The notes under the pieces were generated by a model, which did not search any database, was not told where the DNA came from, and worked only from the letters and a program-made list of their open reading frames with translations. This document shows positions 20,216 to 23,335 of a stretch of 40,762 nucleotides of DNA, piece after piece. Both the position numbers and the translations under genes were made by a program. Source of the stretch: Microcaldota archaeon (lineage in GTDB: Archaea; Micrarchaeota; Micrarchaeia; Micrarchaeales; CABMGC01). Location of the stretch: the NCBI GenBank assembly GCA_021817125.1, contig JAKAWC010000006.1, positions 1 through 40,762 on the forward strand, written 5' to 3'. Each line of letters opens with the position of its first letter. The stretch's first letter is position 1.

Positions 20216-21271
20216 TCAGCACATCGTGCTGTTTGAGTAGCATATGGCGTTCCTCGCTGTCGGGGGCACGGAGAGATATTCGCAGTTTGTCACTGCGGTC
20301 GGCGTAAACACTATGCCGTAATACTGCGCCAGCAGCTCCTGCGCGCTTATCGAGGTTGATGATGCGTTGAGGCAGCTTGCCAGGGAGCCCATGTTCAAGC
20401 CGGATGACTGCGCGATGATATTGAGGTTGCTCGGCGACATATAGCCGTTGGTGAACGCCGAGTTGAGCGTGGCTACGAATAGCTTAAAGTTCGGCTGACC
20501 GGATGCACAGTAGGTGTACTGGCCCAACGCCTGTGCATTGTCTGTGCCGAAGGCATTTGCATACGCTGTGGTGTACTGGCTGAAGACTATGTCGATGGAT
20601 GCATTGATCTTACTTCCATACTTGCGCTGCAATGCCGTATAATTCAACAGGCTTTGCACTGCACCAGGAGCGTATGGGTCGATAAACCATTGGATATGAA
20701 GCGGCTGCTGGGTAGCACAGGCTGTTGCCTTGGCATCCCTTATGACGCCCTGCGAAGCGACATAGCTCTGTGACTGTATCGGAGGCAGCACCGTCTGTAT
20801 AGAGGCTGACTGGACTCTGTCAGTCATGTCACTTACCGTCATTGTCAGCACGAACGTGCCGCTGGCTGAAGGGTTCTGCACCGGCAGCGATGCATACCAC
20901 GTTCTAGAGACCGGCGCGTATGTCAGGTTCATCGCTGAGACGTTCGCCAGGTATGCTATCTGCGAGAGCGAGCTATTCAGGTACTGGTAGTTTGCAAGCT
21001 GGCGTTCGACCGAGAACCGAATCTGGGTCGCGTTGTGCATTGGGTTTGCACATGTACCGTTGACCGCACCGTACGTACAGTTAAGCGATGAATTGGATAT
21101 GCTCTTCACTATAACCGGTTTCGAGTACGAGACTACCACCACGAGCGCGATCAGTATAGCCACCAATACGAGCAGGGCGAGGTGTATGTTGTCCAAGCCG
21201 CCCAGCTTCCTTATCGGCCTCACGAGTATGCTCGGTTCTTTCACATCCGCCTGCTTTTTTGAGTCTGCCAT
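20216..21271 (-). CDS. Membrane-anchored DsbA/thioredoxin-like protein lacking CxxC
   Basis: N-terminal TM; LHIQWFIDPYAPGAVQSLLNYTALQRKYGSKI resembles a DPYCPxC thioredoxin motif; FTPTAV cis-Pro-like loop. Start MADSKKQ at 21271. Confidence 0.6.
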   Translation of the reverse strand: MADSKKQADVKEPSILVRPIRKLGGLDNIHLALLVLVAILIALVVVVSYSKPVIVKSISNSSLNCTYGAVNGTCANPMHNATQIRFSVERQLANYQYLNSSLSQIAYLANVSAMNLTYAPVSRTWYASLPVQNPSASGTFVLTMTVSDMTDRVQSASIQTVLPPIQSQSYVASQGVIRDAKATACATQQPLHIQWFIDPYAPGAVQSLLNYTALQRKYGSKINASIDIVFSQYTTAYANAFGTDNAQALGQYTYCASGQPNFKLFVATLNSAFTNGYMSPSNLNIIAQSSGLNMGSLASCLNASSTSISAQELLAQYYGIVFTPTAVTNCEYLSVPPTARNAICYSNSTMC

Positions 21272-21282
21272 TTTACACACCA

Positions 21283-21395
21283 CGGGTCCGACGGGACTTT
21301 CATGACTGCCACTATATGATACAGCTGCAATCAATTTGAACCCGTGACCCTCACCTTAGGACGGTGTCGCTCTGTCCAAGCTGAGCTACGGACCC
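21283..21395 (-). tRNA. tRNA-Arg(CCU) with intron in the T-loop
   Basis: Exons fold to GGGTCCG TA GCTC AGCTTGGACA GAGC G ACACC GTCCTAA GGTGA GGGTC ACGGG TTCAAAT CCCGT CGGACCC G after removing 38 nt; no encoded CCA; one A27-A43 mismatch. Confidence 0.9.
21297..21334 (-). other. 38-nt archaeal tRNA intron at position 59/60
   Basis: BHB: ACGGG/CCCGT, central helix TTCA/TGAA, 3-nt bulges AAT and AGT on opposite strands, intron helix TGATTGC/GCAGTCA. Confidence 0.88.
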
Positions 21396-21445
21396 TTGAG
21401 CTTTATGGGTAGCCACAGTTTAAAAACTTCTCTGTTTGTCCGGCG

Positions 21446-23335
21446 CTACATCACTTCTATCGGCGTTATGCCCAGAAGCGCGAGCATGTTTCCCATTACC
21501 TGCTTTGTTGCAGCCACCACTGCGAGCCTTGCGTCCTTTGCCAGACCTCCCTTCAGGACGGGCATCGATTCGTAGAATCCGCTGAATGTTGACGATATAT
21601 CGAGCAGATATTTTGTTATTATGTTTGGCCTGTACTCTGCACACGCCTTCTCGACCATCTCTGGCGCCTTGCCGAGCATCATGAGCAGTTCGAAGTCCTT
21701 GCCGCGTGTTATCTGCGCGTAGTCCGAAGCCGTTAGTTTTATTGGGGATCTGCTTCCCTTCTCGAGTATTCTGGCCGCTCTCGCATAAGTGTACATGCAA
21801 TACGGCCCGGAATTGCCCTCGAAGTTAAGCGCCTTCTCCCATGAGAAAACCACCTCTTTCTCCGGAGTGACCTTCAGATACTCAAATTTAATCGCTGCTA
21901 TCGCAATCGCTTTCGCAGTATCGTCGACTTTTGACTTGTCGGTTATCTTCTCGCTCTTGAGCACAAGTTCCTTTGCCTTCCCCCTGACCTCCCGCAGCAG
22001 GTCGTCGGCAGTGTAGTTCCTTTTCTCGCCGAGCCAACCGCCAGTCCTGCCACTCAGTGACCCGGACTCGACCGAGACCAACCCATACGCCAGATGCACT
22101 ATGTTCTCTGCAATCTTAGGGTACCCCATCCTCGCGAAGAGCATCCTAAGCACCTGCTGCTCATACTTCTGTTCCGCGCCGATGAGGTTTATCGCTTTTT
22201 TTACGTTGCCAAACTTTATCTCTTCGCCTGATTCGTTGGTGCTATAAAGCGGCCTGCCGTTCGGCTGCTCAGCCATGAACTTCGAGAACTTGAACCCTGG
22301 ATTAATCAGCCCGAACTTCCAGGCGTGGAATGCGAAGTCTTTTGCCACGTAGGTTGCCACTCCGGTCGACCTTACAATCACCTTGATGGTCTCCTCGTTC
22401 TGGCCGAACTCTCCGGTGCCGGTGAGGTCTACTACCAGACAATCCTTGAACTTGCCCTCTTTTGGAGTCTTCAAGACGCCCTTCTCCTTTGCGGCAGTTA
22501 TTGCCTTGTCGAGTAGCTTTGTCCTGACTATGTCACTCTCCCAGATCAGGACGTCGTGATATATCCCATAATCGAATGCGGTCTCGTACTGCGCCCTGAC
22601 GACCTTGCCCGTGAGATCGCGGCCAAGCTTTGCCTCTTTCGAGCGGTGGTCCTCCATCTTCTTCAGAAGTTCGTCGAGCTCTGGTTGGATATTCTTCTCC
22701 TGCATCACTTTATTGACTTTGACATATTGCTCTCCGAACCACTGGTCTATCTTCTTGTCGGGGTTGTGGGCTATGTGGGCATATCCCCAAATGCTCTCCG
22801 CAACCTGGAGGCCGAGGTCGTCTATGTAGTCCTCACGCTCGACAGTGTAGGAGCACGCAGAATGGATGTTGGATATAACGTCCCCGAGAAGCGCGTTCCT
22901 CAGCTGCCCTATGTGCCACGGCTTGTTCGGGTTGACGCTCGGAGACTCGACTATGACCTTTTCCCCCTTGCCGGAGTCGCACGCCCCGTACGATCCGCCA
23001 CCCTCGTTTATCGCGTCTAAGACCGCCTTTGAGTATGACGCTTGGTCTGCCCATGCGCTGATATACCCTCCAAGGCTCTTCACCTCGCTTACCCCGCCGG
23101 ACGGCTTGATGCCAGCCACTACAGCCTCTGCTATCTTGTCCGGCGCGAGCTTGAGCTGCTTCGCGAGCCTGAAGGCTATCGATGAACTCATGTCGCCGTG
23201 CTCCCCCTTGGGCACCTCTATGGTCGCATATGCCTGCTCCGTAGTCATCTCCGCCTTCGGGAATGCCCTCTTCAGGGAGTCGAAGAGCAGCCTCGAGAAT
23301 TCCTGCTTGAGTTCCTTGCTGGGGTTCGTAGTCAT
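21446..23335 (-). CDS. argS: Arginyl-tRNA synthetase
   Basis: SPSVNPNKPWHIGQLRNALLGDVISN; YARAARIL; anticodon-binding C-terminus. Confidence 0.95.
   Translation of the reverse strand: MTTNPSKELKQEFSRLLFDSLKRAFPKAEMTTEQAYATIEVPKGEHGDMSSSIAFRLAKQLKLAPDKIAEAVVAGIKPSGGVSEVKSLGGYISAWADQASYSKAVLDAINEGGGSYGACDSGKGEKVIVESPSVNPNKPWHIGQLRNALLGDVISNIHSACSYTVEREDYIDDLGLQVAESIWGYAHIAHNPDKKIDQWFGEQYVKVNKVMQEKNIQPELDELLKKMEDHRSKEAKLGRDLTGKVVRAQYETAFDYGIYHDVLIWESDIVRTKLLDKAITAAKEKGVLKTPKEGKFKDCLVVDLTGTGEFGQNEETIKVIVRSTGVATYVAKDFAFHAWKFGLINPGFKFSKFMAEQPNGRPLYSTNESGEEIKFGNVKKAINLIGAEQKYEQQVLRMLFARMGYPKIAENIVHLAYGLVSVESGSLSGRTGGWLGEKRNYTADDLLREVRGKAKELVLKSEKITDKSKVDDTAKAIAIAAIKFEYLKVTPEKEVVFSWEKALNFEGNSGPYCMYTYARAARILEKGSRSPIKLTASDYAQITRGKDFELLMMLGKAPEMVEKACAEYRPNIITKYLLDISSTFSGFYESMPVLKGGLAKDARLAVVAATKQVMGNMLALLGITPIEVM

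Follow-up and report, generated by a model that had tools for sequence, protein, structure and literature searches.

Fujishima in 2011 and Hirata in 2012 are said to have dealt with the tRNA introns of ARMAN-1 and ARMAN-2 and with the epsilon2 splicing endonuclease. Position 59/60 is listed among the non-canonical intron positions of archaeal tRNAs, and introns of the bulge–helix–bulge (BHB) type that interrupt the T-loop at this very junction are reported from the Thermoproteales and others (PMC4090602). In ARMAN, non-canonical introns are described at various tRNA positions and are reported to be cleaved by the ARMAN splicing endonuclease, EndA (PMC4033280). The ARMAN-2 enzyme, a homodimer with a broad substrate range, cuts different pre-tRNA substrates and needs Y160/K161 to do so, and both pre-tRNA substrates that were tried depend on its ARMAN-specific loop for their cleavage (PMC12397907). 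The same junction is also found in the permuted tRNAs of Thermofilum pendens and Cyanidioschyzon merolae, which are joined at 59/60 through a BHB-type motif (PMC3218864, PMC3978253). Since 59/60 introns and broad-specificity endonucleases have already been described, the intron considered here belongs to a known kind. Unlike the Thermoproteales-type introns, however, it is found in Micrarchaeota, where it is kept at one orthologous gene across much of an order. The source genome shares its phylum and its EndA architecture with ARMAN-1 and ARMAN-2 (PMC4033280, PMC6379350, PMC12397907); what we add to that work is a comparative survey of relatives. The permuted tRNAs share the junction and a BHB-type motif, but the exons here stand in normal order around a plain intron, and a permuted or split tRNA is rejected on that ground. 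The Micrarchaeon cultivation paper (PMC8975820) makes no mention of introns.

Within the window, i.e. the whole 40,762-nucleotide stretch of DNA that was analysed, a tRNA-Arg(CCU) gene runs on the minus strand from 21395 to 21283; an earlier note on this DNA had located the gene correctly but left the strand unstated. The precursor body of 113 nt becomes 75 nt after in silico splicing, and ARAGORN reads the spliced 75-mer as tRNA-Arg(cct), in agreement with the identity first proposed. The 5' exon (21335–21395, minus strand, 61 nt, nucleotides 1–59, ending in TTCAAA) covers the acceptor, D and anticodon arms, with the anticodon CCT (CCU) at 21358–21360 within the loop GTCCTAA, and is 84–100% identical to many relatives. 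A 38-nt intron (21297–21334, minus) separates it from the 3' exon (21283–21296, minus), which supplies T60, the T-stem strand CCCGT, the acceptor strand CGGACCC and the discriminator G73 at 21283, CCA not being encoded. The acceptor stem and the T-stem are fully paired between both exons. Removal of the 38 nt restores the T-loop TTCAAAT, such that the interruption does lie inside the T-loop, as had been claimed, at position 59/60. Upstream, the TATA-box-like TTTTTAAA (21419–21426, minus), at −31 to −24 relative to the tRNA, is probably the tRNA's own promoter: over 70 relatives, AT content peaks at −36 to −28, and a TATA-like word stands at −40 to −20 in 43 of the 70, compared with 22% in shuffles.

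The junction has the full anatomy of a BHB, namely two 3-nt bulges with a 4-bp helix between them and a flanking helix on either side, and each element named in the earlier note is present on the minus strand. By direct reading, the 5' bulge is AAT (21334–21336), with a predicted cut after its second nucleotide, and the 3' bulge is AGT (21296–21298), with a predicted cut after AG. The central helix pairs TTCA (T54 T55 C56 A57, 21337–21340) with the intron-borne TGAA (21299–21302); in other words, half of this helix consists of the exon's conserved T-loop letters. The outer flanking helix is the T-stem itself, ACGGG/CCCGT, and the intron helix pairs TGATTGC (21327–21333) with GCAGTCA (21303–21309) over 7 bp, one of them G-U, a pairing that is found by folding and that is matched by compensatory pairing in relatives. 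The pre-tRNA folds with a z-score of −4.7, none of 200 shuffles being equally stable. RNAfold draws the T-stem and the intron helix but leaves a 7x7 internal loop where the central 4-bp helix would lie, and thus that helix is supported by conservation and not by folding energy.

In the mechanism that we propose, T54-T55-C56-A57 pairs with the TGAA of the intron, flanked by the T-stem and the intron hairpin, such that the 3-nt bulges face each other; the genome's own EndA, as an epsilon2-type homodimer, would cut both bulges after their second nucleotide, and ligation of the exons would then yield a 75-nt tRNA reading AGG. The predicted spliced junction is ...GGGTTCAAA-TCCCG..., as expected in A_DKE and ARM-1. 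The intron is almost certainly spliced.

The endonuclease that this mechanism calls for had been guessed to be of the broad-specificity (epsilon2) type, and a search of the source genome found one EndA of 385 aa with Pfam N- and C-terminal EndA domains, which matches the epsilon2 EndA of Candidatus Micrarchaeum acidiphilum ARMAN-2 (4FZ2) with 506 bits over residues 8–385. An epsilon2 enzyme is a single chain of ∼390 aa made of three units (alphaN-alpha-betaC), and the length found here agrees with that architecture. The catalytic Tyr, His and Lys are present, and neither they nor the Lys of the ARMAN-specific loop vary among 83 relatives; the substrate loop of the source enzyme reads GTYK, so that the Tyr-Lys pair is there as well. 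EndA was matched in 151 of the 164 genomes of the source's order, most intact frames measuring ∼380–430 aa. By these features the source enzyme is classified as a fused EndA of the epsilon2 type, presumably with broad specificity. The ligation step is unaccounted for, because RtcB (PF01139), the usual archaeal exon ligase, has no match in the source's 84.9%-complete assembly, whereas all four archaeal control genomes have one; with ∼15% of the genome missing, this absence is weak evidence. Introns are kept in indispensable tRNAs, and if RtcB were lacking from the lineage as a whole, another ligase would have to join the exons, a scenario that we regard as improbable.

How easily would such a gene be overlooked? 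ARAGORN detects no tRNA anywhere in the window and, with or without its intron option, none in the unspliced gene either. The Rfam tRNA model gives the unspliced gene no more than a damaged match, its 21.1 bits lying below the cut-off of 29. Both results bear out the warning that a gene finder may miss the interrupted gene. Simple tRNA finders would list such genomes as being without Arg(CCU). Another intact Arg(CCU) gene, which the earlier note had named as grounds for doubt, was not found with the tRNA model, ARAGORN or BLAST in the 84.9%-complete assembly, and since ∼15% is missing a second copy could lie in that part. In ARM-1 (AP024486) and A_DKE (NZ_CP060530), whose chromosomes are titled complete, the sole Arg(CCU) match is the intron-bearing gene. 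We are highly confident that the locus is a functional, probably sole, tRNA-Arg(CCU) gene with a BHB intron in the T-loop at 59/60.

A pattern describing Arg(CCU) with a 59/60 intron, run on 85,462 named genomes, returned 65 matches, 64 of which are true tRNAs on inspection; the remaining one, in an Atopobiaceae MAG, was discarded as a chance match. Nearly all records with the intron-bearing gene are titled Micrarchaeota. Seven records titled 'Marsarchaeota' or 'bacterium' carry the same Micrarchaeota tRNA locus, and because those that could be placed to a genome fall in the source's family, the titles look wrong. Among 301 Micrarchaeota genomes, 67 have the Arg(CCU) intron at the identical junction: 66 belong to the source's order, and the last, G201, to a different family of the same class. 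A further 36 match the strict intronless pattern, 26 of these in the source's order. The two sets are disjoint, no genome having both forms; as both patterns are strict, genomes that match neither count as unscored, among them some with a further intron at 37/38 or with a divergent 3' end. At two loci of one genus (g8), the Arg(CCU) gene is interrupted at ∼37/38 by an intron of 14 nt and again at 59/60 by one of 47 nt, and in one further genome (G053) the Arg(CCU) intron lies in the anticodon loop only. With the same spot interrupted in dozens of related species, by letters that differ and a fold that is kept, the 59/60 intron is no artefact but real, typical of the lineage and of a known kind. 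The earlier view that T-loop introns are uncommon holds for archaea at large but not for the source's Micrarchaeota order, where an intron at this exact site is common; it thus characterizes the lineage and does not single out the source genome.

What has been conserved, and what has been free to change? The 69 distinct introns range from 13 to 47 nt and are divergent in sequence. Their 5' bulge is AAN in every case, their 3' bulge is AAT, ATT, AGT or TAT, and their central helix is made up of 4 pairs in 61 introns and of 3 pairs in the other 8. In the 51 introns with room for an intron helix, we scored the first five pairs, i.e. 255 positions, and found 193 of them paired, compared with 87–120 when the strands were slid by 1–3 nt; a permuted null of 111 ± 7 was computed on an earlier, uncorrected set in which 190/255 were paired. 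For 40 non-redundant introns, 150 of 200 positions are paired, against 80 ± 6.6 after shuffling of the intron interior. The BHB structure is kept by selection, as seen in the compensatory changes of the intron helix. In the shortest introns, of 13–15 nt, the intron helix is rudimentary or absent; a broad-specificity EndA accepts relaxed substrates of this type. In other words, a single-gene T-loop intron has been kept in most scorable genomes of the order while its sequence turned over almost completely, and the result is a natural series from 13 to 47 nt that runs from strict BHB to short forms without an intron helix and includes repeated losses. Such a series is suited to testing what an epsilon2 EndA accepts.

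Could the gene instead be a decayed tRNA, i.e. a pseudogene or half-tRNA that has taken up a chance insertion, with a working Arg(CCU) gene elsewhere? The failure of ARAGORN, the sub-threshold Rfam score and the incompleteness of the assembly would all fit, but we consider this very improbable given that the acceptor stem and the T-stem are fully paired between the exons, around a complete BHB, that all 67 genomes are interrupted at the same junction with compensatory helix changes and without a match to the intronless pattern, and that ARM-1 and A_DKE, titled complete, have an intron-bearing Arg(CCU) only. It is scarcely conceivable that a self-splicing or mobile element (a group I/II intron or an integration scar) was inserted here and not a BHB intron spliced by EndA: group I and II introns are much longer than 13–47 nt, the 700 bases searched contain no Rfam family except tRNA, and the BHB form is seen at the junctions throughout, although the patchy presence of the intron and the possible copying of an identical 13-nt intron between the Arg(UCU) and Arg(CCU) genes of ARM-1 are what an element of this sort might produce. 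With an intron this short and a fold this conserved, both the pseudogene and the group I/II readings were rejected.

The history of the intron is a closer question. On a tree of EndA from 83 genomes, 78 of them scored for presence or absence of the intron and with partial branch support, at least 9 presence/absence changes are needed, 5 of them forced by starred branches; shuffled labels need 21.9, and none of 500 shuffles is as low. An old intron with several losses explains this most simply, with the caveat that the change counts are blind to gain versus loss and that EndA may have been transferred. Under this reading the intron probably predates the split between the order's two sampled families, after which its sequence and its length would have changed freely, with the fold kept and with several losses along the way. 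The alternative is that 59/60 is a hot spot that acquired introns many times independently, in place of inheritance and repeated loss. The number of changes counts equally for gain as for loss, the intron-bearing G201 sits in another family, and Arg(UCU), Leu(CAA) and the tRNA with anticodon AGG have T-loop introns in this lineage too; the strong clustering of intron presence on the tree, however, argues against repeated gain, as does the downstream neighbor shared by most intron-bearing loci, and we judge it unlikely, if worth keeping in mind. That neighbor, directly downstream of the tRNA (20216–21271, minus), encodes a conserved, apparently membrane-anchored protein with no Pfam or NCBIfam match; it is adjacent and on the same strand in 60 of 63 loci, from which it follows that the intron-bearing tRNA genes are mostly orthologous. 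On the other side lies argS (arginyl-tRNA synthetase, 21446–23335, minus), which scores 500 bits with the NCBIfam model arginine--tRNA ligase and stops 50 nt short of the tRNA. It adjoins the tRNA in 32/63 relatives' loci, compared with the 60/63 of the downstream gene, and a coupling between intron and argS was therefore rejected.

Other tRNAs of this lineage have peculiarities of their own. A pattern scan of the source genome (G000) for further T-loop introns gave 16 matches, compared with 15 in a reversed control, and only matches with readable tRNA exons were retained. In a tRNA with a 29-nt T-loop intron (G000:C11:17523-17625, minus), the anticodon loop TTAGGGA gives the reading Pro(AGG) with A34. 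Such A34 tRNAs are described as nearly absent in archaea (PMC6000648), and the 84.9%-complete assembly showed no Pro(GGG) gene. The AGG-anticodon tRNA is conserved in many genomes of the family (L235–L263), with variable T-loop introns, and in some relatives (L247, L248 and L252) it seemingly holds two adjacent insertions, at ∼53/54 and 59/60, for which an ordered removal would be needed. The tRNA-Leu(CAA) gene (G000:C14, ∼784–883, plus) has a T-loop intron of ∼15 nt without an intron helix. In ARM-1, Arg(UCU) and Arg(CCU) share an identical 13-nt T-loop intron, suggesting that introns are copied between isoacceptor genes, and Arg(UCU) of A_DKE has a T-loop intron too. Additionally, the D-loop of the tRNA-Ser(GCU) gene (G000:C8, ∼133699–133805, minus) is enlarged by an additional stretch that may be an intron, and a copy of tRNA-Leu(CAG) without the 5' acceptor strand (G000:C17:16846-17315, minus), with repeated T-arm-like pieces nearby, lies ∼1.8 kb from the intact Leu(CAG) gene and resembles a remnant of duplication or integration. 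A tRNA-Ile(UAU), of a type that is rare in archaea, is present as well (G000:C12, ∼2041–2115, minus). The pre-tRNA-Ile(UAU) of ARMAN-2 has been used as an EndA substrate (PMC12397907). Finally, the box C/D-like words TGATGA and CTGA occur in the introns that Ser(UGA), Ser(CGA) and Trp have at 37/38.
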